DNA of 64,000 nucleotides from Branchiostoma lanceolatum (Eukaryota; Chordata; Leptocardii; Amphioxiformes; Branchiostomatidae), in the NCBI RefSeq assembly GCF_035083965.1, contig NC_089726.1, positions 8,871,501-8,935,500 on the forward strand. The letters run 5' to 3'. Position numbers and translations under genes: made by a program. This document shows, piece by piece, positions 504-47,440 of this stretch. The stretch's first letter is position 1, and each line of letters begins with the position of its first letter. The notes below the pieces were generated by a model that saw only the letters and a program-made list of their open reading frames with translations, did not search any database and was not told the origin of the DNA.

Positions 504-3500
504 CTTAGCTGTCTCCTTTGCTTTGACTTCAATGTCTACCAGAGGTCCGGTAACCACCCTCTTCTTCGGAGAGCCCTCCTCCTCCAGGGACTGTTCATTG
601 TCGGTAGGGGTGGGGGAGGAGGGAGGGGAGGGGAAGCGGTACTGGTTGTACTCATCCCAGGCAGGGGAGGAGGGGAATCGGCTGGAGACGAAAGTTCAAT
701 CATGGTGAGTTTTTTCTAGTGGTAACAAATCTAAGAAAGAGAGCAGTCAGATACTAAGAGAATAAACTGATTTTAGGCAATGGAAAAATTGTTGGCTGAG
801 ACTTGGTTATCTACTGTTAGTTTAGGCAATGCTTATTTTTTGCATTTGTTGTGCTGCTAGTTTAGCCGACAGAATGTGCAAAATAATACTGATTTTGATG
901 CCTGAATTCTGTGAAAAATTAATCATGCATTAGCGTGATAATCAAGGGTTATCAAAAGTTTAAGTGCAAAACATAAGTGCCAGATTGAGTGTAAGTTGCA
1001 AATGAATCTACTACTGGAGAAAGGGGAAGTTGGAAGGCACACGGGATACAGGGACGGGTTAGTTACTCACACATCGCACCTCATTCCGTAGGAGCTTGGA
1101 GAGAGACAAACAACACATGGTTATTAGTATGTCTTAGTCGAGAAATGTAATGTTAGTGTAACTGAGCAGACACATAGCAGCCAGTGTTTAACTCAACATC
1201 CTACCAACTTCTTACAGTTTGTCTGGCATCAATAGTGCTTTTAGAATTCTCAAGCAGATCTCCTTCTTGCAAATGCATTTAAAATTCCAGTTCCAAGACC
1301 TTGCTTTAATTGAATGCCAATGTCTAGAAGGATACCAAAAGTTTCACTACTGTAACGTAATTTCATCGGTTACATGTACCTGAAGCAATCTTTAAGTTAA
1401 TCATATTTTGCAAGTTTTATAAGACTAAATTGTTATAAAGACAAGCCCTTTTGTATTTCTCCTGAAACATTTGAAGTAACTCACTCTCTGATGGATTCCT
1501 CTAGGAACTTGGACACATGTTTCTTAATGAACGTTGTGCGTAGGATGGTTCGTACGGTCGGGCGCTGGTCGGGTTCTATCTGCAGCATGTCCTTGATCAG
1601 GTCCACAAGGTCGCGGCTGTAACTCTTGTACAGCGGACCCATCTGACGTGACACGACAGAACATAATCATCAATGATCATTTGAACAATATGAGAAACAA
1701 AAACATGATAATAAATGACCTGTTTAAAAAGTAGTTGGCTTTCTCAACCTTTAGCACTCTGAAGTGGGTGTTTGGCACCCGATTCCCTATTGGTTACAGA
1801 GTTAGGCACCAGAGATAGGGTTAAGATTGAAAGATTGGTCCCAAAAATGAAGAAATTTTCGATATATGGATACCCATGATTGTATATAGTTGGTCAAACA
1901 ATGAAATGAGTCACTGATCAAAATGGAAACCAGTTACTGCACCAATCTGTACATTACACTAAAAGATTGTGATGATCCCAGCAGAAAATCACATCATCAG
2001 TACATTGCAAAGAACGCTACAACATGGGGCAGGTACCCACCTTTCCTTTGACAATTTTGAGGGCCAGGTTGTTGATGTCCTTGTCATAGAAGGGGAAAGC
2101 ATGCTTCAGAGAGGCCATCTCATACAGGCAGCACCCCAGAGCCCACACATCGGCCTAGGGAAAGGAGAGCTTTGTAAGTTAAAATGCATTACTAAGCTCG
2201 GAGATGTTCTGGGCACTACACAGGCATCCTACTCTCATCTAATCTTTCCCTTAGTCTGACCATTGGGGTACCACAGAAGATCTGACAGCCAGTTTTCTCC
2301 TTTCTACCCAACTAAAATCCTATTGAAAGAAGTGCTATTGTGCTTAATGCCATGTAGTCCATACAAGGATGGCCTCTTTTGAAACAAAACAAAGAAACAC
2401 ATGCTACAAATGCTCATCTAGACACCAGAACAAGCTTTGAGAATGCAAACCTTTGCAACATATTCTCAATATAAACAACTGACTACAAAACCTCCATTTC
2501 AGGAAGGTAATAATTAAATGAAATAAGATAGATTACACAAAACTGCGTAGTGACCTCTTTGGTGTGTTGTCGTCCAGCCAGTGACTCGGGGCTCATGTAG
2601 CAGGGCGTGCCCTTGGCTTTCAGCTTCTCCGCCATGGAGCGGGTTCCGTCCACCACCGACGGCAGCCCGATGTCCCCTACCTTCAGCAGCCGGTACCGCA
2701 GCGTCAGGAAGATGTTCCGGGTGGTCAGGTTACGGTGGATGATGTTGTGATTGTGGAGATACTGGAATTAGAAAAAAAAATGTTTCAAGAATAGTATACG
2801 TAATACATATTCAGCACCAAGGACAGGTCAATAGAACTGCATTATAGCTACATGTATCTAACAGCATCATCTAAAAGATGCCTCTCTGGCTCAACTGGTA
2901 GCAGCCACACAGTTGAGCTCCTGGTTCCAATTAGTTGGTAACTTGGAGGCTCCGGTTCAAGTCCTGGGTCAAGACATCTCAGTTGGGGCATGAAATGGGG
3001 GTCCCGTGTTCAAGGAGGTGCCTCCAGCATGTTAAAGGGGAAGGACTAGCAACCCCAGTTACCCCACCATGTAGAAATGTACCCTGCTACTGAAACAGCA
3101 GGCAAACTTGCTGCCCTATGTACCACTAGGATCTGAACAAACAGCATCATCTATTGTTACTTGATGGTCAGTTATGAATTCCAAAGTCGTACCTGTATCG
3201 CCATGGCGATCTGCACAAACCACTCGACCAGGACAGGTTCCTCAAGGGGCCGTCCGCTCTGTCCTTTCAGCCTGGTGAACAGGTCCCCTCCGTCACAGAA
3301 GTTCATCACAATGTACAGGTAACCAAACTGGGAGGGGGAACAGTCATTGTAGTGAAGATTCAGTAGTAAGGATTTAGTACCAATGAAATAAACTGTTGTA
3401 AAGCCTGGTGAACAGGTCACCTCTGTCGCAGAAGTTCATCACAATGTACAGGTAACCAAACTGTTAGAGGTAACAGTTGCTGTTGTTAGCATTCAGTTAT

Positions 3501-6500
3501 CGTTTTAATTATCATGAGAGTAAACGCCAATTGAATAGGTTAACTGACTCCTTGCACTGGACCTGTCTATTCAAATCAACATACCTTTTGTGACCAAAAA
3601 CCTGTACTAAACAGTAGTGTCCATCCTAGCAAGTTGATGAAGCTGAGTTGTCTCTGTGAAGGTTGAAGTTTTTACAGCATCATAGAAAAGTAAATGAGTT
3701 TGTCAGAGATAACAATCATTAAGCATGCAGATGAAACAGGAGAGAAATGTGACATTATGCACCTTTTGAATTTGACTTTCCTCCATTACAAAATATATAA
3801 AAAACTGTAACCTCATTTGATGGTTGCTTGAACCTAATCATTAAGTAATCTGTGATTAACAGACCTGTTCAAAGGCTTCCTTGTACCCCACTAGGTTGGG
3901 ATGTTTCAGGTCTCGCAGCACCTCAGACTCCTGCAGGGCCGCTTCTCGCTCGTCCTCGGAATGTTCCAGCATCGAGACACGCTTCATGGCATACTGTGTG
4001 GTATAGAATTGTAATACATGACATTGTGTAGCTTATGTGTTCCGTATTAAATGTCATACTCATAGAAATAACAAATTATTAATCAGACACTGGATTTCAG
4101 CACCAAGGACAGATACAATAGAAGTTATTAAATAAATAACAAGATCTATCTTTTAAGGACTAGGCTTTATAAGTGGCCCATGGCTTTACATACTGGATGG
4201 ATAAAATACATACTAGTTATTTTAGACACCTGGTAGAAACTGATATATATAATAAAATAAAGCCATTAAGTCCTTCAGTTGTCTATATTCTTAGATGTAC
4301 ATGTACTAGGATGTCTACTTTCTATCCCTATCTGATATCTGTTAAATGCTAGGATTGCCTTTTTTCATTTTTAATCAACCCTTAGAATACGCCATTTTAG
4401 CTTCAATTCTCTAAAACTCCACACCATCCCCCCGCTTGGTTGCTCCTCTCCCTCACAATGCCCTGCACATTTTCCTCAGAAAAACCTGCTATAAGAAGTT
4501 GTGTGCTGCCCACCTGTTTCCAGTCCTTCCTGTTCCTGCCCAGCCACACCTCCCCAAAGCTGCCGCTTCCCAGGGTCCTGATCAGGATGTAACCTGCCAC
4601 CTCCTCTTCAGGCTGGGGAGCAGCAACATTTTAAAAAAACCATCAGATAACAGTCATACAATCTAGAATAAATGTTTATCTGAGTTGGTAAATTTCTTTG
4701 TTTGCTAAATCAAAGAATTGGACTCACTGGAATTTTTGACTGAATCACTCAGTCCTCTTCAGCTGTCTGACCCAATCGCTTACCCAGGACGGGGGGCAAT
4801 ATCAACTTCCAAGAACCTTTGACCCTTTGCTGATGTCACATGAGCACATTCACATCATAAACACTTCTGTACGGAGCAATTGGGTCAGATAGCTGAAGAA
4901 GACTGAGCGATTCAGTAAAAAAAATTCTAGTGAGTCCGATTTTGTTGGCAGACAATTTAATTTTTCCATAAAGCCATACAATTTGTCAACAATACTGGTC
5001 ATAAGATTTGCTTGAACTGAAAATTTAGGGACAAAATTACTATCTGTGCATGATATTCAGAGTGGTCAGTGAGCCACACTGTTAAGGTATCATTCTGTGC
5101 AAGTGACATTCTGGAAAATAATTATCTGTACTAATTCTAAAGTAAGTTAAGACGACAACAAGCCTCCTTATATCATATGTAAGATAAAACAAGATTATCA
5201 AGAAAGAGTAATAATTATACACAAGGAGAGGTTCTCAGCCGCATGCATTACAATAATCTTCATCCAAAAATAATAATGCCAAAATATCAAAGGCAAACTA
5301 CCACAGATTATTGTTCATTTCCAAGGTTTGGCTTTCTTGATCATAAGAAAACTAAACCTCAAAAATCAACAAAAGTCTGGCATTTGCCTCGGAGTCATGT
5401 AAAAGACCATGTGTTTGAGATCTAGACAGACCTTCTGCCATGGTAGGGTGCGCAGCGGGCTCTGAGTGAGAAAGAACAGTGTATAGAGCATAACATTAAT
5501 CATACAAACATGCACCATGCTTTAAAACTAAAGACTCCTTTGTTTTTTCTACACCTACAGCACAATGTCTACAGGACATATGATAGAGCTAATTCACCGA
5601 CTACGATATTGAAAAGACATTCACTAAGACACAGAAAAAGAGGAAAGGGCTCACCCCTGAGGTATTGCCAAAAAGGTTCTTACCTGTAACGAGGACATTG
5701 GTAGTCCTGTTGATTGCTGAAGCAAAGTCACTGAAAGAAGAGAAAATATGGGGGTTGTTTTGCTAAAATAATACTTATTATACCTAGATTTGTGATAAAT
5801 CAACAGTATAATCATGTTTGGTACCAGCATTTCTTTTGAAAGTATGATGTAGACATGTGGTCACTATGGACAGGATTCTTGATGCTTGTGTCAATAGGCA
5901 AAATTATCTAAGTGACCATCAAGAACTGACTGGGTGGTCCCTACGTGGAGGTGGCCACTTGAATGTACAGGTTTAATTGTACATAAATGTTGCCAATAAC
6001 AGATCTGAAACCTTTAGAACTTGTGTGAAAGACTCACCACTATCTTCCGAAGCTCGTCTGTGGTGGGAGCCCATGAGCGGGGAGGCAGAGTAAGGCAGCT
6101 GCAAGGATCCGTGATCAGAGGGTGGAGACCTGCTCATGGCCAACAGCCCCGAACTGGCTGTTCCGCCAAACTGGGAGCTCCCGTGTGGAAGCGACCCCAC
6201 GAAGGGAGACGTTGAGTGAAGAGACGAGCCAAACTCGGAGCTCTTCCCTAAGGAGGAACCTGTGGCGGACCTCTGCATAGAGGAGCCCAAAGAGGTCATG
6301 CCTGAATGAAGCGAGCCAGGCGGAGAGCCAGCCATGATGAAGGGAGACAGACTTGCAGATCGCAGCGAGTCATGGGAAGATAGCGATGCTTGCTGGACAG
6401 AGTCCTCAGGAGGAGAACTCTTTGAGGACGAAATTGCAAAAGGGAGGTTGTCCATGGATGAACGCCGACTGCTTGATGAGGACTGAGTGGGGAGGAAGCT

Positions 6501-8578
6501 GTAGTGGTGAGGGGGAGAGCTGCCGTGCTGCAGAGAGGGCATGCTGCCGTAGTTTGCGAAGGGGAGGCCGGGAAAGCCTGGCTGGGCCGGGGCGGTCGCT
6601 GGGGTAGGTGGTGTGAGGGACAGCTGTGGCAATGGTGAGGCTGCTGTTGCTGAAATAAAGAAACAAACAAACATAAATACCATAACAACATGCTGTAATC
6701 TGACACAATGGTACAAACAAAAAAGTAAAATGATTTGAGGAGCTTCATCTTTTTTTTTAAACAAATTGTGCTGTGAGTATGTGTAAGACTAACCTGTATG
6801 TTGGAGAGGCTCAAAGTGGATGGAGATTCCTGGGTACCGCTGGTACTTGGAGGCAGAGGCAGCCTGTGGGGAGCCTGGGTAGGGTTTGGTCCCGGGGAAG
6901 TTTAACTGCAATGTGATAGAACATGGTTATGATGAAACAACTTTTGTTTTCATGTAAAGTGCTACTTCTTCTCCAGTTTCATTTTTGGCCTGCTGATGTG
7001 AAAAACAGTACAATATTGAATAGATGTTGCAATATTCATGTCTAACAATTTGTTTTTCAACATCTAATTCTTTAGTTTTTTTTGTCAGAGCTCTGCAATA
7101 TTGGCATTTTGGAAGTACAATCTGTAGTGTTAAACCTTCAGACCTTCAGATCTTTTTTGTAAAACATTTAGAATAGCTGAACCACAATCTTACCTACCTA
7201 CCAACTACAATTCAGGAACGTGTTAATGTCTTTGACAGCCGCATTTTGTACTCACCTTCCTCAGTTCATCCTCCAGCCCCAACCGCAGACGTCCGCTATC
7301 CTGGATCCTTTTGAAGTACTTCCACCCCTCCTCTGTCTTCAACTGAACCTCCACAAGCACCTTCGCTCCGACACTGATGTTTACCACCTCTGGGTTCCGC
7401 CCGCCCGACACCTGTCTCTCAATAACAGTCCTCACCGCTGCCCGGGTCAGGGCTTTGTTCATTGGGTTGGATGCATAGAATTGGGCTGGAGAAAGGGAGA
7501 TTTTTTCTTCTGTGAATTTCTTGCTTGACTATATCTAATTTATGGATTAGTAGAGAAATAAAGAAATGTTGCCCAATGCAAGGGAAGGTGACAGACGGCA
7601 TCAAAATGTCGGCTGTAATGCAACTTCTTGGTTGTGAATAAAGAAATTGTTATACAAATGAGTTTTTGAAGAGGATGTTTCCTTGTCATCTTAAGTCATT
7701 AGAAACTTTGGGATGGACATCGATTTTATCAGCATCTGTTATTCACAACCGAATTAGTCTGTTTAAATGAATGTGTCAGTGTGATATTTTGCTTACCAGC
7801 AAGGGCTTTGTTAAGTGGACTGGATGTATAAAATTTCAAACCTTTAGGAGCTTTGAGACAAGCATTGATTTTCTCAGAACCTTTCATTTAAAACTAAATT
7901 AGTCTTTGTGAAGAATTTATTGTTACAAAGTTTCTTTTATTGAAATATTCATGCATGTGTCAAATACAATGAGCCCTTTAAGATGAATACTTCACATGTC
8001 ATCAAATTAATAAGGGTCACATAAATGTAATGTCCTGGATACTGACAGCTTTATTTGGAAATGTTCACTGACTGAACAGTGTACTGTCTTGTTACAAATT
8101 ACATACTAGAGGTTTACATTTTTGCTTGGTTTAAATCCGGGGAATCTATAAATATAGCACCCACTCATTGGACACCCTACACCATTACATGTATGTGTGA
8201 CAATGACAATGATCCTGTTGGACATGTCATCACTTAAGCAATACAAAATTGCCTATCAATCCTAAGATATAACATCCGTGAATAGTTTCATCAGGTTGGC
8301 AAGTCACTGGATAACAATTTCTTTGTACACAACCAAGTGTCACAGAAACATTGGCTTGAATTAAATGCTTGGTTGTGTACAAAGAACTTTGTGATCCAAT
8401 CATACACTTTCAGATAGATAAGACAGTACAGTTTCTTACCTATTGTTGTTCCTGTCGGCATGAAAGCGTTGCCTATGTTGACTGTGATGGTCCCCCATGG
8501 CCCTGAGGGTGCCTGGTTCCATGGCTGGTTTCCTGCCATTTGACCAGGAATCATCCCTGGCATTGCCATGGTCTAAAT
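504..8578 (-). CDS. NEK-family kinase-like protein with degenerate catalytic loop (predicted pseudokinase), 3' end off window
   Basis: Fourteen exons chain with matching phases: 8440-8578 (ATG at 8567-8569), 7256-7485, 6794-6905, 6038-6649, 5684-5730, 5432-5461, 4514-4612, 3865-3993, 3193-3327, 2555-2761, 2041-2154, 1485-1642, 1071-1094 and 504-681, giving at least 735 codons. Residues 1-390 are an unrecognised alpha/beta-looking segment (second exon) and a Ser/Pro/Gly-rich exon of about 200 residues. The kinase domain follows: Gly loop GSGSFGEV, beta-3 lysine in YAMKRV (about 424), then HRNLTTRN (about 517-524) where active kinases have HRDLKxxN, DIG (about 538) and GTPCYMSPE. Loss of the catalytic Asp and the following Lys predicts little or no phosphotransfer; nucleotide-binding residues remain. 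The tail has a Pro-rich SPPSSPTP segment. The domain and introns resemble the NEK4 neighbour downstream. No stop codon is seen, so the gene probably continues left of base 1. A 5'UTR acceptor lies just before 8578. Confidence 0.82.
2874..3140 (+). mobile_element. tRNA-derived SINE with 13-bp target-site duplication
   Basis: An A box TGGCTCAACTGG (2887-2898) and a B box GGTTCAAGTCC (2954-2964) match the RNA polymerase III internal promoter of tRNA-type SINEs. The element is flanked by perfect direct repeats ACAGCATCATCTA at 2861-2873 and 3141-3153. It lies in an intron of the NEK-like gene, opposite to that gene's transcription. Tail-like fragments of the same family occur near 18976, 23026 and 58333. 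Confidence 0.85.
3400..3464 (-). repeat. Intronic partial duplicate of kinase exon 3193-3327
   Basis: About 65 bp at 3400-3464 nearly repeats 3269-3333, the start of the exon coding FGYLYIVMNFCDGGDLF together with its splice acceptor. It lies upstream of the real exon in the same intron and ends without a usable donor, so it is an exon-fragment duplication and not an alternative exon. Confidence 0.7.
4720..4937. mobile_element. Inverted-repeat element resembling paired Penelope-like element termini
   Basis: Arms of about 60 bp are inverted around a spacer of about 95 bp, starting GGACTCACTGGAATTTTT and ending with its near complement. Each outward-reading arm contains CTGAAGA followed by a short hairpin (ACTGA-loop-TCAGT), as in Penelope-like element hammerhead ribozymes, but with AAAA where the ribozyme needs GAAA. 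It lies in an intron of the NEK-like gene. Confidence 0.5.
5849..5975 (+). mobile_element. Partial MITE copy, TACAGTCAAACCTGT family
   Basis: The block GTGGTCACTATGGACAGGAT through TTGTGTCAATAGGCAAAATT aligns with the copies at 38-196 and, reversed, 16334-16522. The left end is eroded. It is intronic and lies just before exon 6038-6649. Confidence 0.5.
8283..8392. mobile_element. Penelope-like element terminal fragment, inverted pair
   Basis: TTTCTTTGTACACAACCA (about 8320) and its inverse TGGTTGTGTACAAAGAA (about 8370) match the outer ends of the Penelope-like insertion at 28175-29263. TTTCATCAGGTTGG at 8287 matches the reverse of that element's 3' tail near 29240. The fragment holds only terminal sequence and no reading frame. 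Confidence 0.55.
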
Positions 8579-16603: not shown

Positions 16604-19600
16604 CTACAGCAGTCCCATCATGGAGTCCTCACAGAACTTGAGCTGCCAGACCTTCCCAGCATACATGTCAAACTTCTCCTTACCCAGCAGTTCGACCAGC
16701 TGGGGCTGCAAAATAAAGGAACATATATCATTACATCCGTGAAAGAGTTATTGTTTAGGTGTCTGCCTTGACTGTGTGTTAGTGTTCCTGTATACTTTGG
16801 CCAGCAAATCTCAGGAAGCTAGGGACGGATTGTGATGATATTAGGTATGTATGTAGGTTAAGGTCTTGGGAAGACAAAGGTCAAGGTTGAATTTGGCCCT
16901 CCTAGTGGCTTTTCCTGGTACTGCAGAAGAACTTCCTGTTTAGTAATGTAAATTGTGCAGCTGCAACACGTTTGATATCACTGGTGGTCTGATATGAGTA
17001 CTGCTATGGTCTGGCACACAATTGGGAACATGTGACTGTCCAGACGTAAGATAGCTTGCAGTAAAAACTATAATTGATACTCAATGAGATGTGGCCACGT
17101 TTTTGTCACATTTATAAGAATCTTAATGTTTGTCTTGCTACAATTTTTGTAGTTTTCTTAACACTGTCCTTGATAGTATGGCTTCATCAATTTTGTCAAC
17201 ATTTAAATGAGAGCAGAGAAAACGTTTCCTACCTCCACCTCTTCTCCATCTACTGTGTCCAGAATGTCGTAAGCCTTCTTGAGAACCCCCATGCCCAGCC
17301 CCTTGATGCAGTCCTTCCTCAGGGCTGCTATTCTGTTCATCAGCCTTCCTGAGGCACTGATGGTCTCAAGCCCTGAGAAGAAAAGGAACGTTAGAGTTCA
17401 GAATCAAATGTTTTATTTCCTAAATCTGCATTAAATGATATAGAGGTACTAGTCTGTACCAAGCTCTGTGGGTTGCCGGAAAAGTATCAGAAATCGACCA
17501 AACAAGATACAATGTAGATAATTTGCCTGAGGAGATAGCTGGCCATTGAGTAGCCATTTACAAACATTAGGGAAGTGAAATATTCTCCAAGGCAGGTAAC
17601 CAATTTTGTAGCTGATTTCTACAACTTTCCAACTTGCTGGGGAGGTCTCATAGAGACTATAGAGGTTCGCCTTGTTTTTATTTCCAAAATAACAGAATGA
17701 TGATACAGCAGCATATTACAACTTACTCCTTCAAGAAATGTAAATACCAATGTACTAAGTAGAACAACTCACCCTACAGTAAGGATGCAAGATACATTGT
17801 ACAAGTACATATCGACTACACCTTCCCCTGAGTGATGGCAGATCACAAGTATATCTGATTCAATACCTAGAAGATTTGAAGGTCTTTCTGCATCTTGAAG
17901 GACACGGTGCACAAAGGAAGGAAGGTCTACAGAGAAAGATCAAGAAGAAAGGAGGTTGAAGAGACATAGAATACAAGAGAGTAAAAGCCAGTATGAGAGA
18001 TTGAAAAGCAGAATTTGTTTTTTCATCTAAAACTTGATCTACCTTAGAAGGTAGAAGTGGGTAGATATAATTGGGGAAGAAGAGGGAATGCATGAGAGAA
18101 TACAGAGGAGAGGGAAGGAAGGTGAGGAAAGGGAGGGAGGGAGGGAGCAAGGAAGGAAGATGTTTAAAAAAAGACATACACCCTTTCCACTGAGGTGCCA
18201 ACCTTTGAACAACCATTCAGAAACCAAAAATCTCATTAGTAGTTGAAACTAATTTCATTGATAAAGAATTGTGTAATTTGCATGTTTTCCTGTCTTAAAA
18301 ATAATACTTTTGCATCATGGATTGTACTTGATTTTCAAAGTCATAGGTTGATCATACAAATTTGATTTTGGTTGCTCAAAGGTCACTCAATGGTCTCCAT
18401 CCAGTTGAAGAGGGTCCTAAGCATGCTACTGATCAGGGCTGGACAAATCCATCGGCCTGATAGCCCGGGAGCCAGTGGATGTCCTTTGTACTGGCCAATG
18501 GGATTCTTTAAACGCCCTACACATTCTTTACTGAAAAGTAAATGAATTTCCTTGCTGCATCTAAAAATGCATAAAGATATGTCATTAAAATTTCGGACCA
18601 GTGAATTCTTCAAAACATGTTCTAGCCTGCTGGTTCTGCCTTGTCCTTACCTGGACTCATAGAGGGTGCAGGTGACTGTGCTGGCGGCTGTGGTGTGGGT
18701 ACCTCCTCCATGGGGAGGGCCTCCTCTCCGTCCCGCGGGGAGTCATCCTCCTCATCCTTCCCATCTTGCATCTTCAGGGTGGTGTCCAGCAGGCAGATGA
18801 AGTTGTTCATCTCAGACTCTTTCCTGCAATGACAGACAGGGTTATCATGAAAGTTCTTCTGTTTTAATATGTTATGGAAATTTTTAGGATTAAATTTTAG
18901 TCCGGTCCTTAGTTATATTAAAGAAGAACAGAGGACTGGTAAACAATTCGGTGAGTTGCAATTGTTGTTTTGATAGATGGAAACCTGCTGCCCAATGTAC
19001 CTGTAGGCACAGGAGGACCTAAGGTCTTTCAGGTAAGGTAATTGTTGTGCTGGAGTAAAATCTAACCCTTCTCCATGAGGAAAAGAGTTGTTGGATACAG
19101 TCACTGAGGACAGCTGGGGCATCAAGCTACATATTGTTTGGGATGTACTTAGAAAATTAGGTTTCCCTTGTCAAGTCTAATCAAGTCAGCTTAAACAAAC
19201 TTTCCATACATCACTTCACAGTTCACATGTGCAGGGATCAAAGTTTAAGGTCCCTGGCCATTCCTGGTCTACATACCAGGTTCCTGAACTTAGACCACAA
19301 TGCATCACACAGCACATATGCACCTGGAACAGTGAACCTGCTCATTGTCAAGCTCTTACTTTTTCTTTCCCTCGTTGGAGGACTGAGAGTCGACTTCATC
19401 GTCCTCTTCTGAGCTGTCCTGACTGCTTTTTGTCCCAGCTGAGTACGGTCTGCCGTCTCCAGACCCCCCGCAGTCGGAGTGCGCTCTCCGTCTGGGCGCG
19501 ACGACGGAATCTGTCTCGTCTTTAGGTCGGTCTCCGCCTGTCCTCGGTCTTTCGCCTGATGATCTCCTGTTGTGAACTGTTAATCATAAAAATAAACATA

Positions 19601-22600
19601 ATGGTTAGAGCGTAGTCTCCAAGCAGATGTTGGGGCAGAAAACTATAACTTTTTCTGATCTGCTGTTTTTTCTGACAGTACTCTATCCCAGTAGTTACAT
19701 GTTTGTATAGCCTACAATTGTGAACATTGGCTGGGACAATAAAAAAACCAGGATACATGTTATGTACATTTGTACCAACATTTTACCTTTCACATAGTTT
19801 GACAAATATCTTACATCAAGGGAAGAAAAAATATGACATACACTGTACATAATATAATACGTAATAAAGACACAAAATGATGTGAAAAAAGTAAGATGTT
19901 GGTACCTAGTGGTGAGAGTTGGACTTCTTGCTTGACCTTTTCTCTTCTTCTCGCTCGTGCTGATTTGTTGATACTTTGCTATAAGGGTGACAAAAGGGAG
20001 ACAATACAGCATGTTAATGCCCATCAAACTGTAATTCATCCAGTTTATCTTTATAACATTTCTGTATTGCGAAACCTGAAACTGGTCAAAGCACCTAAAA
20101 ATAAAGTCGTCAGTTGGAAATAGGATTGGGAGGTTTAATATGCACCAAACTAAGTTTTTACTCTATTTGTGTTTACAATAGGTTTGTCTTTGATAAAATT
20201 TACTTAGTTTCTTTGTGGCACTGCAGTATAATTGACAATTTGAGTGCAGCGCGGTCAGTGCATTATGTCCTCGTTTTTGTATTTTCTTCACTGATTAATA
20301 ATGAAAAAATAGGAGTTTACAAATAAACATGGGGAACTGAACACAATGATCCCTACCCTTGGTGTATCTGCGTCTTCCTTCGAGCTTGAGACAGAGCTGT
20401 ACCCTGAGCTGGACTCCACACTCGGCCCCTTGGTGTGCTTGTCTCCTGAGCGGGGCCTCCTCTTGGGTGTCTCATCGCTGTGGGGGGGTGGGGGCAAGGG
20501 GCGAGGCTTCTGCACTGCCTTGGGCTGGAAAAAAAATCGAGATGTGAGCAAAGGTGGATTAAGATGAAAGCCCTTACTTCCCATGTTACACAACACTTTT
20601 TCCTACCACATAGCAATTAGCCATGCATAGGATTACAGCATGTACAGTACAACAAGATTGAAAAGAAGTAAAATTTTTAGATAACTTACATTCAATATAA
20701 TGCATATTCATTCTCTCATGTTTGGTATATTCACAAGCATGTTCTTGAAATACTCAAAACAACAAATCATAATGATGTGAAATACACAAATGATATGAAA
20801 AACACAATATGACATGAAAAACCACTACAACCGACCTTATCAAATACGGATGACCTTGAACTTGAGGAGTCGGATGTGACAGAGTCGACGCTGTTGACTG
20901 AATCTGAGTCTGCTTCCTTCTTCTTCCTCCTCCTCTGTTTGTGTTTGGAGGGTTCCTCACTACCGGGGGTGGGGACGGGGGTCTGTAGGGATGGACAGGA
21001 GTTTGTTAATTAGTTGTTTAGAATGGGTAGCAAAATGCAGGATATGTAGTTGTTTGATATATTCATGTGCAACTGTGCATACATTAATCCTTGCCATCAC
21101 TAACATGTATCTCCTCTCCCCAATGCATGCTCTTCTATACAGGTACAAGAGTATCAGGGATTAGTTAGGGTTTTGGTCAATAAAAAAAAAAAACATTGAC
21201 GTTTGCTCTTAATTGAGTCTTATTGAGCACACGTCTTGTGAACTAAATTCAAAAACTTTTCAACATCCAGTTCATGTATCTACCCAGACTGACCAGACAG
21301 TAAAGCCAATAGAGCACACACAAGAAGCAGGAACATTGTAAATATACACTGTACACATCACAATATGATGAGAATATGGCTGACCTGTCTCGCTGGCTGT
21401 TTGACGTTCTGTTCCGTTGGAGGAGGGGACTTCTCCTCGATGGTCTCCAGGTCAGGACTGACGGCCACACCTGGGGTGTCAGGAACATCTTGGACCTCAA
21501 AGTCCACCTGTTGAAACAAAGGGAGATCAAGAAATGGTCAAGAAAGGAGGAAAAGACAGACTAAATTTGCCCTCCAAAACCTTTTATCGAGACTGTGTAT
21601 CAGAATCTGTTCTAAAATGCAGTGACAACTTTTCTACTAAACCTTACCTTGGATACGGTTGCTATGGACCCCATCATCTGTCCATCTGGAGTGTCTGACT
21701 TCTGCGGGGAGGGGGGGACAGCCTGGCGGGACCCAGAACCAGGGCGGGACCCAGAGGAACGAGGACGCTGCCTGGATCAGAAATACAAGTTAGAGAACAT
21801 GTCAGAGCAGTAATCTCTCTTGTATGTCCATCAGAGGATGTCAATGGCATCTTATGTGTGACAGCAGCCAAAAAGTTGAGGCGCAGTTACATCCACACAC
21901 TGGTGTGCAACAGTGGCGCTGGGGTGAAGTCTTATTTTCTTTCTGGTTTGCTCTGTGGCATGATTTTGGTCCCTTTGCCTCCAACAAGTACAACTAACTT
22001 AATTTTGATTACAAATCTAGCAGGTGCTTTTATCAGTGAATAGGGCAATATCATTCATGAATAACACCAACTTTCCTGAACATATTTTTGCAACCTTTGA
22101 GGCTTATGTAGCCTTAAGATTGCAGATACACATTGTAATATCATGCAAATATGCCACACAAACATATAAACAAGATACATTGATTAATCAACTGATTGAT
22201 TGATGAAAGATACTTACATTCTCCTGGTCCCCTCCAGGAACAAGGCGATGTGAGTCTTGATGTACGGGTTTCTCAGGACCCGTTTGGAGCTGGGGCGTTT
22301 CTCAGGATCCTGCGCCAGCATCAACTTAATGAGGTCACACAGGTCGGTGCTGTACTTCTTGGGCATGGAGGGCATCTGGGGAACAGGATATGACATCATA
22401 TATCTCTCTCTCTATCCAATTTAACGTCTTTTGTTCCCCATCATATGGGGGGTTGACGTTATATATGCTGATCAGAACAAGATATGACATCATGAACAGA
22501 TTAGAACATTACGACTGTAAACTTCTACAGTCAAAAATATATGCCTTTCACGTACATGTAACATAATTTTAAGAGACTATACAAGAGGTATAGAACTTTT

Positions 22601-25600
22601 AAGTTTTGTTTCAGGAAAAAAGCCCAACATGATGATGATAAACTATAAGAATATGAACTCTCAGACTTAAAGAAATGTCAGTTGAAACCTTACCTTTCCC
22701 CTGAGGATCTTGTAGACTAGAGAGTTCATGTCTTTGGCATTGAAGGCATGTTTCAGGGTGGCCATCTCATACACACAGCACCCCAGGGCCCAGATATCAG
22801 ACTGGAAAAAACACAAGACAACATTTAAACACACATGTATCAAAGAGGCACTTGCATCCCACAATAGCATAGGACCTAAGATGTTCTGACAAACTCAATA
22901 AATCTCCCATGTTCATCTGGGAACAGGAACATTTTACAAGAACTGGCAAAGGACCTTCCTGGAGGACATGCAAAGAACTAACATCCCTGGTAAAAATAGG
23001 ACTGTGAATGGCGGACAACAGAACTAGATGGAAACTCGCTGCCTCTAGGCACAGGAGGATCTAAGGTCTTCTACATCTTACTTATCAGTCTAATACTACC
23101 TGTACTGTTATGGAGCACCTACATAGTGCTAAAGGTTAACGTACACCTTAAGGATGTCCTCTCTTGCCTGTGGTTGTATAGCTTGTTGGTAAAGAGCATA
23201 GTATCACATATTTCAAAGTTTTTAACCCTTGGTCTTCTAACTCACCAGTCTACAGGAGGTTAGGGGGCACCTATAGAGTGCTAAAGCTTAAGGTACACCT
23301 TAAGGATGTCCTCTCTCACCTTTTGATTGTATACGCTTGTTGGAGAAGACCAGGGTATCACATATTTCAAAGTTTTAAACCCCTAGTCTTCTAAGTAAAC
23401 TTACCAGTCTACAGGAGGATAGGGGGCACCTATACAGTGCTAAATGGGAATAAGGTTCATGTTAAGGACATCCTCTCTCACCTTGTGATTGTATGGCTTG
23501 TTGGAGAAGAGTTCAGGACTCATGTAGTAAGGAGTGCCGATGAGAGTAGTGGCCATGTCACTGGAGCTGTCCAACACCCGGGCTATCCCCAGGTCACCGA
23601 CCTTTATAATCTTAGTCTTTGTCAGGAAGATGTTCTGTGTCTTCAAGTCTCTGTGGAGGATGTTTCTCTCGTGCAGGTACTGAAGAAAAAGTAAGGAGAT
23701 ACGTTGAAATAACAACCATTGGGATAGGTCTAAATTTTATTGGGTAGAATGAACTTTTGTTGCTGTGTCACATTGATGTCTATAAAATTTCAGACTGGTC
23801 TTTCTAAAATAAGTGGTACTTCCATCCTTAAGTTTAAAATGCAAGATACTGTAGTGTTAGGAAGAAAAGACTGACGTTAGCAAGGAAACGTGTTGAGGGT
23901 ATCTGTATCTAGACATAATTAGAAACAGATGCAATATCAGAGCTCTAAACTATAACACTGTTACAACTTGTCTCACTAATGCACTAGACTCTACCAACAC
24001 TAGGGTTGCAATATTTGATCTCATCTCCGTAGCCGACTCCCTTCAAACATTTGACTCTATTTGGCCAATTTCTACTATTTTCCCAGCGATCCGTGGAGAC
24101 TGGTAGAGTCTACTCTCCAAGCAGAGCTAGGGTTTCGGCTGGTTTTTAACGTGTTTTTAGGCGTTTTTGTCATGCCTTCTACTTTGTCATCGTTTTTGTT
24201 GTGCTGCAAATCTGTTGGGTTTATAGAGACAAAAAAAAAACGAAAAAGTAGAAAGGCCGACAAAAACGCCTAAAAACAAGTCTAAAACCTGCCGGAACCC
24301 ATCCTCTGCTTGGAGAGTAGGTAGAGTCTACTAATGCACAACATATCACAATAATGCACAACATGTCACACTAATGCACAACATGTCACACTAATTCCAC
24401 AAGGCCAAATCTGTACCAGTAACTAATTATAAGTTACAACAGGTAGAAGATTTAACATCAAAGAGCACCTGTTAGGAGTACCAACCTGTAGTGCCATTGT
24501 GATCTGCACAAACCACTCCACCACCTGTTCCTCCTCCAACAACACCCCCTTCTGGTTCTTCAGTCTGGTGTACAGGTCTCCCCCCTCGCAGAACCCCATG
24601 GCGATGTACAGCATGCCCTCCTCCGTCTCAAACGAGTCCTTGTAGTTCACGATGTTGGGGTGGCGCAGCTTGGACAGGAGCTTGGCTTCCTGTTCTGCTG
24701 CCTTCCTTTCACGTTTGGATGCATTCTGTAAGTCCATGCGTTTCAATACATACTGGAAAATAGAAATAGATGAAGGTTTTAGTCTAGGTGATGTTATTTG
24801 TTCACAGATGTTCCATACTTGATATAAGGTAACAACTGACACTGACTTTAAATCTACAATACAATAAGGCCATATTGTATTAGATTATATAGATGACATA
24901 CTCTGGACATCCCAAAACTGATGCAAACATGCAAAAAAAAATCTTGGAAAAAAAAGTTGCCTTTATTATCAAATCTAAGTCAGGAAGGCTGAGCAAAATG
25001 ACTGAACACACAGAACATGTCCTAAATAATAAAATCTTTGGAAGACTTAGTATCCATTTTCCGAATTTTCTTTTTCAATTACGGCATATATTTGCTACTA
25101 ATAATTTTGCAGCTTCTTTGTATGATTTATATGTACAGTAATGAGTATGGTCTTTTTTATTGGAAACGAACGAGAATTGATGCGTGTGCAGATGTCATCT
25201 ATATCAGTGTGACCTAAACTAAAGATTATTTCCTCCTAACATTTCGAGCCTGCCTACTTCCTGTACATCCTACATGTGAAACATACTGATAAGTAGCCTC
25301 CGTTGCAGTCCTTTTCCCCGCGGCGTTTTTTTTTCAATTTTTTTTGGGGGGGGGGGCGCCGCGTATCTGCTTGGGATCTCGTATCCGCCGTGCCCCTGTG
25401 TCCGCTATAGACCCTGTGTCTTCCCCAGCGGCAGACACAGGGTCTATAGCGGACACAGGGGCACGGCGGATACGAGATCCCAAGCAGATACGCGGCGCCC
25501 CCCCCCCCCCCAAAAAAAAATTGGAAAAAAAACGCCGCGGGGAAAAGGACTGCAACGGAGGCTACTTATCAGTATGCTCACTTATCTTCGTGCTCACATC

Positions 25601-27208
25601 TTCTTACTTGTTTAAAACTTAATGCCCTTTATGCCTCCCGGCATGTTGGGTTGCTCACTTCTGCCCTAGAATTTCTAGATCTTTTAAATAATTTACTTTT
25701 AAATTTTTAGTATTAAACTCAAAATCTAAGACTCGACTTAAAGTCTTAATGTTTATAAGCAACTTCTTTTCTTACTACTAATCTTGACAATATGGCAACA
25801 AAGTGAGGAAGAAAATCAACTATATATAACATATGAATATTACAAATAAAATAATTTTTTACTGAATCTGTAGGTTAATCATCATTGATTACATCAATCA
25901 AACAATAGAATAAAAGCAAAAGAATTTGGATGAGAAGCGACTAAAATTTATGAATTATTTATAAAATCAATTTTATCATGAATGCAATGAAAAGGGGAAG
26001 TAAACAGACATGATTGGAAGTCTTATACATTATTAAATATTCAAAACGCAGTCACAGACTCATGACCACTTGCGTAATATAGATATAACGTTACTTTATC
26101 ACAGCTGTTTGTGAAATGAGTGTGAAATGAGTGATTCTATTTTTACATGTATGATCTATTATGTAAAAAAATTGCCTGACATTTTTTTAACTAATAAAAC
26201 TTAAGATATGCAGCATAGTGCTATAAAAACAGTGTATTAGCGTTCAAAATTCTTAAGTCAACATAACTGCATACTATCCTCCACATGGTGCCAGTGATTG
26301 TGTGTTTGTGTATAACGGTTCGTGTCATGGTGAAAGGAACACAATAACCAACGTCTGCAACGTTTGCTAAGCCTCGCGATTGGGCAAACTTCCAATATAG
26401 CCTGGTAACGATTAACTGCGTACAGGTTTGAACAGTACTTTGACATACTTAATCTAAAATGGAAGGACGGGTAGCTTCCCAATTTTACAGGTCATTTAAG
26501 CCTTAAGGTTTTATGCATCACTAAGTGTAACGTTAACATTTAAACTCTGCAACAGTTTCATTGTACCTTCCAACTGGACTTCATAATAAATGGAAACTGT
26601 GGCATATGTGAGCATTTGGTGACAATGCATGTTGCATGAATGTGAGATCACAAATCTTTGTCTTAGAAAATGCCTCAAGGCGTTGGCGTCTAGGTCGTTA
26701 CCATGACAACTAATTGGATACTTCTTTTTGTAACACTACATAGTACTTTGTGTAAGTCTATTATTCATGATTTTGACGAGCCTCTTGTAGATGGCGTTGT
26801 AAAAATGGCAGGAAGCTTTTTCAAATCTAAAAACCTTCAATTACAATTCAAGGCCGTGAAAATAATAAACTTATGGTTAAACATAGCCGGCAATCAAAGT
26901 TAAAACAGTGTCATGAAAAAAAGACCAACTGCTAAATTTCATCGCATGCTATCTGATTGAAGAACATGCACTTGACACTGACACCTGGTACGAGATTCTA
27001 CACTTTCAAACCTTGACGAAACGATATGCGATGTAGTGAAACAGTAGAGGCAACAGTGCTACAAAAAAATCAGAAAAGCAACAGGAATTTTCTCATTAAA
27101 TTGTACTTTTCTCACCTGCTTTCTGTCTTTCTGGTGTCGGGACAACCACACCTCCCCATAGCTTCCCTTCCCGACAACTTGAACTTTCTGATATTCTTCC
27201 AGCCCCAT
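16604..27208 (-). CDS. NEK4: NEK4-like serine/threonine kinase
   Basis: Exons, 5' to 3': 27116-27208 (ATG 27206-27208), 24486-24752, 23482-23679, 22694-22801, 22218-22375, 21648-21771, 21385-21507, 20836-20982, 20357-20524, 19906-19973, 19360-19566, 18651-18823, 17233-17372 and 16604-16705 (TAG). They total 2076 bp, or 691 aa (human NEK4 is 841). The N-terminal kinase domain (about 1-255) has GKGSYGEV, lysine in YVLKRM (about 35), HRDLKTQN (about 129-136), DLG (about 149) and GTPYYMSPE, all intact. NEK4-typical wording such as EGGDLY and [10 protein letters not shown] supports the name over NEK1 or NEK3. The middle is low-complexity, basic and Ser/Glu-rich. A conserved-looking helical end finishes [13 protein letters not shown]4 acts in microtubule and DNA-damage signalling in vertebrates. 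The acceptor at 19973 is chosen over 19978 to keep phase. Confidence 0.88.
16760..16948 (+). repeat. Dispersed repeat, partner of 56467-56660
   Basis: Intronic sequence running from GTCTGCCTTGACTGTGTG to CTGGTACTGCAGAAGAACTT aligns block by block with 56467-56660, including GGTATGT-ATGTAGGTTAAGG and AAGGTCAAGGTTGAATTTGG. It is non-coding and its class is unknown. Confidence 0.5.
18976..19030 (+). mobile_element. SINE tail fragment
   Basis: Contains GATGGAAAC, TGCTGCCC and TAGGCACAGGAGGACCTAAG in order. The same order recurs at 23026-23070 and, inverted, at 58333-58375, and resembles the 3' part of the SINE at 2874-3140. Intronic in NEK4. Confidence 0.45.
23026..23070 (+). mobile_element. SINE tail fragment
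   Basis: GATGGAAAC then GCTGCC and TAGGCACAGGAGGATCTAAG, matching 18976-19030. Intronic in NEK4. Confidence 0.4.
23111..23515 (-). repeat. Three-copy tandem array of a NEK4 exon end plus intron
   Basis: A unit of about 160 bp occurs three times. The copy at about 23450-23515 spans the real 3' end of exon 23482-23679. The copies at about 23143-23200 and 23290-23355 carry decayed versions of that exon end (compare GATTGTATGGCTTGTTGGAG with GATTGTATACGCTTGTTGGA). Short intron blocks, such as ATCACATATTTCAAAGTTTT, repeat with them. The extra copies lie in the intron and do not extend the frame. Confidence 0.7.
24110..24320. mobile_element. Foldback MITE, ends CTACTCTCCAAGCAGAG
   Basis: The 17-bp end CTACTCTCCAAGCAGAG at 24110-24126 returns inverted at 24304-24320. 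Inverted similarity continues inward through GGCGTTTTTGTC for about 100 bp per arm. The direct repeat TAGAGT flanks both sides (24104-24109 and 24322-24327). It lies in a NEK4 intron. Confidence 0.75.
24331..24398 (+). repeat. Short tandem repeat, about 18-bp unit, three copies
   Basis: AATGCACAACATGTCACACT-like units repeat three times directly beside the MITE at 24110-24320. Confidence 0.6.
25282..25576. mobile_element. Long near-perfect hairpin element
   Basis: Arms at 25282-25420 and 25434-25576 are complementary almost base for base, differing mainly in homopolymer length, around a 13-bp loop. The outer end is ATACTGATAAGTAGCCTCC. Inner parts include CGCCGCG and a C/G run next to an A/T run. 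It sits in the intron before NEK4 exon 24486-24752. It is probably a foldback transposon that inserted recently, since the arms have not diverged. Confidence 0.85.
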
Positions 27209-28266: not shown

Positions 28267-28625
28267 GACTGGAGTGCTAGCTCGCTGTTTCTCACCGCTA
28301 TAAGTAGCCGATGTAGGTGGCGCTTTAGCGGTGAGAACACTGTCCCAAATGCGACTGAGTTTGTATCCCCCCTCGTCTCGGTTCATCACCGGTGTTGTCT
28401 TCCTTATCCAGACCGCCTCCTTAATCCACCGGGTGCGTCTGTTGTCCTCTCTGTCGATGACCTTGGCCCCCTCCCAGTCAATGATGCAGTTGTGTCTGGC
28501 AATGTGGTCGGTGATTGCTGATTTCTTGTCTACTTGTTGTGCTTGTCTTTTCTGTGACCTTGTGTACTTTACCACTTCAATGCAGTCGGCTTCTTTCTTG
28601 TGTTCGTCCAATCTAGGAACGAAGG

Positions 28626-29152
28626 TTTTCAGGAAACACAATGTTTCCACAGCAGTTAGGCCTAAAACGACACTCAGGAGCCTGCTAGTGCACCCTAAGG
28701 ATAAACTGGATGACTTAGTAAAAACTGATTGTGTGTACAAAATTCCATGTAAGAGCTGCAACGAAGTCTACATAGGTGAAACAGGAAGGACCTTTGGGAC
28801 TAGATTGGACGAACACAAGAAAGAAGCCGACTGCATTGAAGTGGTAAAGTACACAAGGTCACAGAAAAGACAAGCACAACAAGTAGACAAGAAATCGGCA
28901 ATCACCGACCACATTGCCAGACACAACTGCATCATTGACTGGGAGGGGGCCAAGGTCATCGACAGAGAGGACAACAGACGCACCCGGTGGATTAAGGAGG
29001 CGGTCTGGATAAGGAAGACAACACCGGTGATGAACCGAGACGAGGGGGGATACAAACTCAGTCGCATTTGGGACAGTGTTCTCACCGCTAAAGCGCCACC
29101 TACATCGGCTACTTATAGCGGTGAGAAACAGCACTCCAGTCAGAAGCTCTGA
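28626..29152 (+). pseudogene. GIY-YIG endonuclease domain of Penelope-like element (RT missing)
   Basis: The plus-strand frame contains VYKIPCKSCNEVYIGET, then GTRLDEHKK, the GIY-YIG nuclease signature of Penelope-like elements. A C-terminal region follows (RHNCIIDWEGAKVID, WIKEAVWIRK, SRIWDSVL) as in other animal Penelope-like proteins. In the full protein this domain lies after a reverse transcriptase. Here the RT is missing and the 5' part of the frame runs into the inverted arm, so no functional protein is expected. Confidence 0.85.
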
Positions 29153-33636: not shown

Positions 33637-36600
33637 TCATGTCTGAATCATCTTCTTCTTGGGATCAAAGATGTACTTCTTGAACTGCAGAGTGACTTGG
33701 ATCCCACCCTGTCCCTTTTCAGTTACTTGTGCTGCTGCAGCTTCTTCCTCCTCAGCCTTCTTCCCTTTCTTCTTCTTCCCTGCAGCAGAAAGCACCTGAA
33801 CTGTACCAGGCTGGAGACCCTGCGGAATCCGTATCTTAAACTTCCCACTCTGCCCGAACCCCCCCTCAATCACCCCCTCCTCTCCTGTGGTCAGCTTCAC
33901 CTTCAAACCCACAAACAGCTGAATGTTCGTCTCTTTCTTGAAGAGTGATCTCCCGATCACCGTGTACTCATCCGTCATCCTCTCTACCATTCCCTCCTTT
34001 GATTTGTTCTTGAAGACTTTCAGCTTTGGCAGGACCCTCTCACTGTAGTTCTTGTCCACCACAGCCTCGAGCAGTCGACCGTGGAAGGCTAGCCTACACG
34101 TGTTGGCGTGGATGTCGGTGTCGAGGCGGGAACCGATGACCAAGCACTTCTGGGGACAGATCACAGGTTTTTCAAATTCCAGGAGAGCCCACTGTTGGCT
34201 GGGGACGGCCTCTGTTGCCTCTGAATCTACTGCACCGTTCTCCTTGCCTTTACTTGCACCTTCCTGCCCGTAGAGTTCGTCTTGATACAGGTATTCCTTA
34301 CTGAAGTCAAAGTGGGGTTCCTCTTCTTCTGTACAGTCTTGGGAAGGTGAACCAAAGAACTGCACTCTCGCCATGACAGTTTCGTGACCCATGGTGATGT
34401 GAAACTTGGCTTTTGTCTGGCACGCTCCCTTGAAGAACCTTATCTTCTTCACCTTCAGGATAGCAGCATGTATGAGAGTGAGAGTCCCTGGTGTACAAAC
34501 CAGCCCCCGTTCCAGCAGTTTGGGATCAAACTGCGTCACACAGATGCCCACCCTGTCTCCCTGCATGGCTGAGTTCACAGGTTGTTTAAACATCTGCATG
34601 GACTTGACCTTCTTCACTTCTTTGACATTGGCGACCTCTACGTTGTCGTTGATTGCAACAGTGCCATTCAGGACCGTACCCGTCATGACCGTACCCTGTC
34701 CTCGGATGGCGAAACAGTGGTCCACTGCGAAGATGAACGGCCCGCTGGCATCACGGCTTGGCAGGTAAGTGTGCTTTTTCAGTAGATCCATCAACTCTTG
34801 CAGGCCAAGAGCTTCTGTGTCAGGAGCCTGCAAAAGGATCAAATGATAAGTGAGAAAACTTTTTGCCAGCACCTATACATGTACATGTAGATGTGAATAT
34901 TCCACATACAGTCCTTTATGTACTTATTTCTGGGCTTTGCAAAATGATGTTTAGTTTGCTGATACATAAGATTGATTTCTGGATTAAACTACTTGTAAAT
35001 TTCACGCTCTATAAGATCTAGATGTACAAAAAGTAAGGCAAAGATAGCCAATCTTGAAGCGAAATATGAAAGCTTTACATTGACAACAGGCCTAACTATA
35101 ACAGCATACAAGACTACCTCCGGTCCCCCTGGCTTGGCAGCCACAGCGATAATCGGTGCATCGGCAAACCTGGTAGACTTTAGTGTGGCAGCCATTTTTC
35201 TCTTCATCTTCTCTATCATTTGGTCCCTCTTGGCTTCAGGCAGGAGGTCTGCCTAAAGAAAATGAATGAAAACTTGAAACTTTTATCCTACGGCTCTACA
35301 ATCAATCCTTCATAGAATAGGACATGTGTAATGTGTGGTATTAATTGGTAATGTACATGTATGTGTCACATGTGCACTGTGGTAACTAATATTACTCATG
35401 GTTAGAATAGAAGACTAACAGTGAAAGAAGACAATTGCTAAAAGATAACATTGATTACTACATGTAGGTATCAACTATAATCTTATGTAATATGTCTTGT
35501 AGTAAACCAAGAGAATAGAAAACACATAGTACTGTAAATGCAGAAATGTTCGCGGTGGTTTTATGTTCGCGGTTTTAAAACATAAAACCACGCAAAACTT
35601 TTAGCCCACCGTACTTTTAAAACTTTTAACTACTGTTTCAAACGCGAACTCAAAACCACCGTGAACGCTCCATTTTCTCCCTACCACGAAATAAAAACCA
35701 TGCGAACTTAAATGCATTTACAGTAAGTGCCCTTAGTAAGTGTGCCCTATTGGTTCCCAATTCTGACCTTGTTGAGCACGACCACCATCCTCTCACAGGC
35801 GATCTCCCCGATGACCAGACACTCCGCCGTCTGGGTCTGCATCCCCTTCGTCACATCCACAATCAGCAGCATCAGGTCTATAATCTGGGCACCTGAAGGA
35901 TGATAGAGGTTGTACATTAATGGTTAGAGGTATTTTGGGCTTGCTATGTTTGGATTGGATTGGATGTATAGGCCTGATGCCTGACTGTTTTTGTTGACAT
36001 CCAGCTGCAGGGTATTCAACGACTGGTAGGCGAAACAACGTTAGCAAATCAGGTCCCTAAAATCATTGATATTCTAATTGACTAATCAGATTACTGATTA
36101 ACATGTTAATTAATCTTTTACCTACCAGTGCGTCACCGTGAGTTCAGCGTATTATACACCTGGTGGAAATTACATAATTGGTATAATTTACACTCACATA
36201 ACAAATCCTAACATCAACGTTACGTGTTTGACTATGATAACCGACCAATGATTTTTTAAGGTTCAACAAGATGACCTACCATTTGAATAGGTACAAAATC
36301 TCATTTTTTAATATTGCTAATAATATTATCTTTCAGGAGCTTCAACAGTGGTAGACAGCTAATGATGGAGGGACAGAAATGTATAACTGTAGATTCTGAT
36401 TTACTTTCACTTTATTACTTACCACCAATGATAGTCTTTATCAGGGAGGCGTGTCCAGGACAGTCCACCAGTGTGAACTGTAACTTTTCATACTTGGGGT
36501 TCTGTTCTTTGATGTGCGCTGGCACGTCCACAGAGAACGAGGAGAAACCCAAATCCAGTGTAATTCCTCTCTCCTTACTCTGCGGGTGCTTGTCGAAGGC

Positions 36601-36699
36601 TGCAGTCGATGCAACAGTGCTCAGGGCCTTGCAGAGGGAGGTTTTCCCGCTGTCAATGTGGCCCAAAACTCCAACATTGAAGTTCAGGATGGCAGCCAT
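33637..36699 (-). CDS. EEFSEC: Selenocysteine-specific elongation factor
   Basis: Exons: 36423-36699 (ATG 36697-36699), 35768-35892, 35118-35252 and 33637-34827 (TGA), 575 aa against 596 in human. The protein is the GTPase that carries Sec-tRNA to the ribosome at SECIS-directed UGA codons in the cytosol. GTPase motifs are present: G1 GHIDSGKT (13-20), G2-region ERGITLD, G3 DCPGH, and G4 NKAD across an exon junction (VVVLNK then ADLLP). Domains 2-3 follow (RGQGTVMTGTVLNG, then VARVQFF-type strands), then the eukaryote-specific domain 4 with VIGRSLFKKE. A Lys-rich stretch (AGKKKKGKKAEEEE) lies near the C-terminus. The last exon encodes more than two-thirds of the protein. It is divergent with RUVBL1, with 284 bp between start codons. 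Confidence 0.97.
35530..35725. mobile_element. MITE with ends TACTGTAAATGC
   Basis: TACTGTAAATGCAGAAATGT at the left returns as a near inverse ending GCATTTACAGTA. The interior carries inverted copies of TTCGCGGTGGTTTTAT-like blocks. It is 196 bp, with no reading frame, in EEFSEC intron 2. A TA target is consistent. Confidence 0.8.

Positions 36700-47440
<10,741 letters not shown>

Follow-up and report, generated by a model that had tools for sequence, protein, structure and literature searches.

Gene models in the window

The 64,000-nucleotide stretch of Branchiostoma lanceolatum DNA analysed here (contig NC_089726.1, positions 8,871,501 to 8,935,500 of the forward strand; hereafter the window) carries a gene for a NEK-type pseudokinase and, upstream of it on the same strand, an intact NEK4-like gene that the initial annotation had overlooked. 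The pseudokinase gene was modelled as 13 exons on the minus strand, from 8569 to 504, which form a single open frame of 727 codons with no stop, with GT at 13/13 donors, AG at 12/12 acceptors, and a GC (guanine plus cytosine) content of 0.45–0.67 in the exons vs. 0.29–0.45 in the introns. As exon 13 terminates at a donor at position 504, the C-terminus of the protein lies outside the window and the gene is incomplete here. The span had been given before as 504..8578; the locus stands, while the start ATG is now placed at 8569 and the gene runs past the window at 504 (minus strand). The exon 7485-7256 and the junctions 6038/5730, 5684/5461, and 5432/4612 proposed earlier were all found to be GT-AG and phase-compatible at the sequence level. 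The exons, together with a partial exon copy, are the following:

8440..8569, minus strand: exon 1, coding for residues 1-43 and one further base; ATG in the context ACCATGG with an in-frame TAG two codons 5' of it, frame open, donor gtaaga
7256..7485, minus strand: exon 2, N-terminal extension; 76 residues of alpha/beta appearance, encoded by the codons that follow the split one; GT-AG, phase 1 in and 0 out
6794..6905, minus strand: exon 3, N-terminal extension; GT-AG, open
6038..6649, minus strand: exon 4, Ser/Pro-rich, probably disordered linker; 612 nucleotides open, GC 0.60
5684..5730, minus strand: exon 5, linker, 47 nucleotides; GT-AG, phase fits, less certain since short
5432..5461, minus strand: exon 6, linker, 30 nucleotides; GT-AG, phase 0/0, less certain since short
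4514..4612, minus strand: exon 7, start of the kinase N-lobe with the Gly loop GSGSFG; 3' intron position common to the NEK4-like gene
3865..3993, minus strand: exon 8, beta-3 Lys (YAMK) and alpha-C Glu
3193..3327, minus strand: exon 9, hinge region; 5' intron absent from the NEK4-like gene
2555..2761, minus strand: exon 10, catalytic loop HRNLTTRN (HRN at 2737-2729), DIG, SPE
2041..2154, minus strand: exon 11, DVWALGCC (alpha-F)
1485..1642, minus strand: exon 12, end of the kinase C-lobe; 158 nucleotides, phase 2 out, as in exon 5 of the NEK4-like gene
504..681, minus strand: exon 13, Pro/Ser-rich tail, ends at the donor
3402..3497, minus strand: partial duplication of exon 9, covering its acceptor region plus the first 59 bases; 85% identity over 96 nucleotides, stop 3' of the copy

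Between exons 12 and 13, a 24-nucleotide segment in phase and with AG and GTGAGT ends (1071-1094, minus strand) is a candidate optional micro-exon. The partial copy at 3402-3497 differs from exon 9 at 3/59 positions in its exon part vs. 11/37 in the intronic flank (Fisher p = 0.002), and could be either a poison exon or a relic that underwent gene conversion.

Kinase domain and catalytic residues

The kinase domain occupies about residues 391-667 (Pfam Pkinase at 396-654, E 1e-56). When it was searched against the PDB with phmmer, the highest scores went to NEK1 (235 bits), NEK2 (139-142), and NEK7 (125-134), with non-NEK kinases at 117 bits or less among the matches listed. The catalytic-loop codons on the minus strand (cac cgt aac ctg acc acc cgg aac) translate as HRNLTTRN, with an Asn codon (2731-2729) replacing the catalytic Asp and a Thr codon (2725-2723) replacing the Lys. 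In PKA-style numbering, positioned by alignment, the substitutions are Asp166 to Asn519 and Lys168 to Thr521, while Lys424 (Lys72), Glu442 (Glu91), Asn524 (Asn171), and Asp538 (Asp184) are kept, together with the Gly loop GSGSFG, YAMK, the Asp of DIG, SPE, the alpha-F Asp of DVW, and the Arg of RP. In the activation loop, a Lys stands where NEK4 and NEK2 have a Thr, presumably the residue whose phosphorylation activates NEKs. There is also a two-residue insertion ahead of GTP, and the Ala-Arg that follows DxG is altered. The NEK1 chain in the PDB has an Ala at the position of this Thr, which we take to be an engineered change.

The losses are unevenly spread over the domain. Across the NEK4-like protein of the window and the human kinases NEK1 and NEK2, 83 columns are invariant; the pseudokinase differs at 19 of them, and these comprise 13/30 columns within residues 513-580 (catalytic loop to the start of alpha-F) vs. 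6/53 elsewhere (Fisher p = 0.002, for a region picked after the list was seen). The same odd-one-out count gave 5/69 for NEK4, 12/76 for NEK1, and 28/92 for NEK2; the domain as a whole is therefore no more eroded than that of NEK2, and its losses lie around the catalytic and activation segments. Three claims of the initial annotation are upheld by these data, namely membership in the NEK family (by the PDB scores), loss of the catalytic Asp and the adjacent Lys with retention of the Gly loop, beta-3 Lys, DxG, and SPE motifs (by codons and alignment), and selective loss on a preserved fold (by the invariant columns).

Could the HRN-T signature have arisen through faulty sequencing or assembly, or belong to just one allele of an active kinase? 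A single sequence was seen, and Asp (gac) to Asn (aac) is one base away, but Lys (aaa/aag) to Thr (acc) takes two more, so that one base error cannot yield both; since the Thr of the activation loop and the Ala-Arg following DxG are changed as well, we find this explanation barely credible. The neighbour with an intact HRD is a separate gene and does not speak for a sequence error at HRN.

Because HRNLTTRN departs from the catalytic loop HRD(L/I)KxxN of NEKs, we classed the protein as a NEK-derived pseudokinase and not as an active NEK. Pseudokinases are defined by a missing beta-3 Lys, HRD Asp, or DFG Asp (PMC4718504), and here Asp166 is the residue lost (Asn519). About 10% of the kinases in most kinomes are reported to be without a key residue (PMC3218828).

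The neighbouring NEK4-like gene and the origin of the copy

The intact paralogue was located by a coding scan of the window:

18622..27208, minus strand: NEK4-like paralogue, intact, with 12 exons that encode 625 residues up to a stop, catalytic loop HRDLKTQN
27208-27116, 24752-24486, 23679-23482, 22801-22694, and 22375-22218, minus strand: its kinase-coding exons

In the PDB search, its kinase scored 305 bits with NEK1 and up to 199 with NEK2. The pseudokinase domain is 53% identical (144/273) to this kinase, 40% to NEK1, and 34% to NEK2, and the window NEK4 and NEK1 are themselves 49% identical. The two neighbours have the GCCxYEM motif in common, as well as five intron positions with their phases (after KQ, after A(I/L)Q, before (A/S)D(V/I)WAL, before M(G/P), and the phase-2 end of the 158-nucleotide exon), with an additional intron in the pseudokinase at FEQ/FGY. 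The shared introns may be older than NEK4. The two genes differ in the catalytic loop (HRDLKTQN vs. HRNLTTRN), in the activation loop (Thr vs. Lys), and in what precedes the kinase, which begins at the start codon in the NEK4-like gene and follows 387 residues in the pseudokinase.

A maximum-likelihood tree was built for four taxa (pseudokinase, window NEK4, NEK1, and NEK2), with NEK3, NEK5, and NEK6-NEK11 outside its scope. It joined the pseudokinase with NEK4 (P value of the approximately unbiased test, p-AU, 0.995) and rejected both alternatives (0.005), the quartet sites backing this pairing numbering 14 vs. 3 and 2; the branch leading to the pseudokinase was 0.81 long vs. 0.17 for NEK4. 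With NEK4 rather than NEK1 or NEK2 as its nearest relative among the kinases compared, and with a gene structure in common with it, the pseudokinase thus falls in the NEK4 lineage. An extended tree included a putative human NEK4 kinase sequence, and with it placements alongside NEK1 or NEK2 were again rejected (p-AU 0.003-0.004), while three placements around NEK4 were not separable (p-AU 0.63, 0.32, and 0.50). The window NEK4-like kinase is 71% identical to this putative sequence, so the name NEK4 is partly provisional, whereas the closeness of the pseudokinase to its neighbour is independent of it. Identity, introns, and topology point to a tandem duplication of the NEK4-like neighbour, after which one copy diverged and turned pseudokinase, and such an origin forms part of the joint explanation that we favour below. 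The duplication itself may be lineage-specific or older.

Retention of the reading frame

The pseudokinase and NEK4 differ at 30/53 four-fold sites, and the difference by codon position amounts to 0.38, 0.27, and 0.52 for the first, second, and third positions. In neutral simulations started from the NEK4 kinase (2000 runs each), the frame stayed open in 3.5%, 0.15%, and 0% of the runs at 10, 20, and 30% change, under a model without insertions and deletions, which would make open frames still rarer. An open frame in the face of such heavy silent-site divergence suggests that selection has most likely preserved the copy, in agreement with the retained role put forward in the initial annotation. 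The long branch, the lost catalytic residues, and the degenerate exon copies nearby would suit a decaying pseudogene copy of NEK4, but 727 open codons over 13 exons with intact splice dinucleotides, and no stop at a divergence where neutral frames rarely stay open, make decay very improbable.

N-terminal extension

The extension ahead of the kinase counts 387 residues in this model, about 157 from exons 1-3 and the remainder from the linker of exons 4-6 (26% Ser, 12% Pro). Exon 7 begins at an acceptor with in-frame stops on its upstream side and offers no in-frame Met before the Gly loop, and therefore needs a coding exon ahead of it. By this frame logic, and with phases in agreement from exon 1 to exon 7, the N-terminal exons are probably spliced to the kinase. 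The kinase would then start at about residue 391, unlike in NEKs generally, where the catalytic domain is typically N-terminal (PMC2031824).

It is unlikely, in our judgement, that exons 1-4 instead represent a separate gene or an alternative short transcript, with the kinase transcribed from another promoter. Read-through of exon 4 meets a stop (5975-5973) that overlaps an ATTAAA (5977-5972), which makes a short N-terminal product or a separate gene possible; exons 5 and 6 are just 47 and 30 nucleotides long, and the GC content by codon position is unlike between the N-terminal and kinase parts. On the other side stand the upstream coding exon that exon 7 needs and the phase held by exons 1-6 into it, as well as a codon-usage scan with no above-threshold segment between 9.0 and 18.6 kb, a weak point given that the scan was trained on the pseudokinase gene itself and missed several NEK4 exons.

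Searches with residues 1-157 returned no Pfam match at E up to 1, and best values of E 0.17 in NCBIfam and E 0.46 in the PDB. The initial view of an extension of some 390 residues outside NEK architectures accordingly holds for these residues, with its length now 387 from the ATG at 8569. Pattern searches with residues 44-157 gave 18 matches in viral_contigs and 35 in genome_contigs, none of them confirmed, both collections being poor places for an animal gene. A single-sequence AlphaFold2 fold of exon 2 alone had a mean pLDDT (predicted local distance difference test) of 50, and the best Foldseek match of that low-confidence model was at E 0.73. Derivation of the N-terminus from NEK4 was tried and rejected, as 266/500 shuffles scored as well. 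When the N-terminal parts were compared with the window by tblastn, their own exons alone scored below E 0.2, followed by a 12-residue relic at E 0.29 and chance-level matches. This relic (7802-7835, minus strand) resembles the start of exon 2 (KFYTSSPLNKAL vs. QFYASNPMNKAL) and is followed by a donor-like GTAAGC.

Within the family, the NEK10 kinase also follows an N-terminal region. A domain of four armadillo repeats has been described in that region (PMC12564199), whereas Pfam finds nothing ahead of the kinase in the window pseudokinase.

Proposed function

The joint explanation that we favour, with somewhat better than even confidence, is that a diverged tandem NEK4 duplicate turned into a pseudokinase that binds ATP and metal without efficient transfer and serves as a scaffold or allosteric partner of NEK4. 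The domain would still bind ATP and a metal ion, with phosphate transfer very poor or none. HER3 and the JH2 domain of JAK2, in which Asn likewise stands for Asp166, bind nucleotide with the cation held by Asn171 (PMC4718504), and the same Asn here makes binding without efficient transfer likely. PSKH2 has the HRN motif as well (PMC7586955). These three belong to other kinase families, and HER3 is without Glu91 (PMC4718504), which the pseudokinase keeps.

As to the partner, the ULK4 pseudokinase domain interacts with STK36, a ciliary kinase of which ULK4 is a paralogue, and RPGRIP1/RPGRIP1L are interaction partners of NEK4 at cilia (PMC10958382). Taken together, these two cases suggest that the pseudokinase acts in the NEK4 pathway as a scaffold or allosterically, where it would most likely bind NEK4 or compete for its partners; ULK4 and STK36 are of another family, and the interaction reported for them is assumed for the window pair. 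The N-terminal module and the Ser/Pro linker would position the pseudokinase or tether it to other proteins. A fuller version, in which an animal NEK4-lineage tandem pseudokinase has gained a folded N-terminal domain that is new and represents an undescribed family, and regulates NEK4 as ULK4 serves STK36, is more speculative, and we hold it only tentatively.

Several points weigh against the favoured explanation. The informative sites in the tree with putative human NEK4 lean towards window NEK4 with human NEK4 (7 vs. 4 and 1), so the duplication may predate a simple local one; the long branch of the pseudokinase makes relaxed constraint possible; and the exon 13 tail has no significant similarity to NEK4 exons 6-7 (252/2000 shuffles as good). 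Binding to NEK4 or to its partners is proposed purely by analogy. Moreover, HER3, an HRN protein, can keep weak activity in vitro, autophosphorylating at high local concentration (PMC4718504). The window kinase might then retain weak or non-canonical activity, or few substrates, despite HRN-T, all the more as the checked nucleotide-binding residues are all kept; the loss of Lys168 and the activation-loop Thr besides Asp166, and the two-residue insertion in the activation segment, render this improbable.

Other features of the window

A selenocysteine-specific elongation factor (eEFSec) gene lies at 33649-36663 on the minus strand, where the open reading frame 33649-34830 matches eEFSec in the PDB (E 4e-146) and segments up to 36663 look like further candidate exons. 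Near it, an exon of RuvB-like 1 was found at 45606-45779 on the plus strand (E 1e-31). Both matches fit a genome of animal type, and the two genes are presumably neighbours in human too. An inverted segment pair at 28340-29076 has the same 56-residue translation and no Pfam match, and is perhaps a fold-back mobile element, while an array of about 1 kb at 52588-53559 shows, by eye, repeats of about eight residues in several frames.

Novelty and significance

Inactive members of the NEK family are already known from Giardia, where 139/195 Neks of strain WB are likewise without catalytic residues (PMC3218828); in the available parts of that source, they are not described as NEK4 tandem copies. 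Sea-urchin KSR3 offers a related case in a different family (PMC10322840). Literature searches limited to open-licence papers found no NEK4-derived animal pseudokinase, and within that literature a pseudokinase derived from NEK4 in an animal would be the new element. The N-terminal extension may represent a novel domain. As the active kinase and the dead copy are linked side by side, comparing the two genes shows how an enzyme became a pseudoenzyme step by step, and if the pseudokinase acts on NEK4, the pair would allow a direct test of the idea that inactive paralogues modulate their active counterparts in ciliary signalling.
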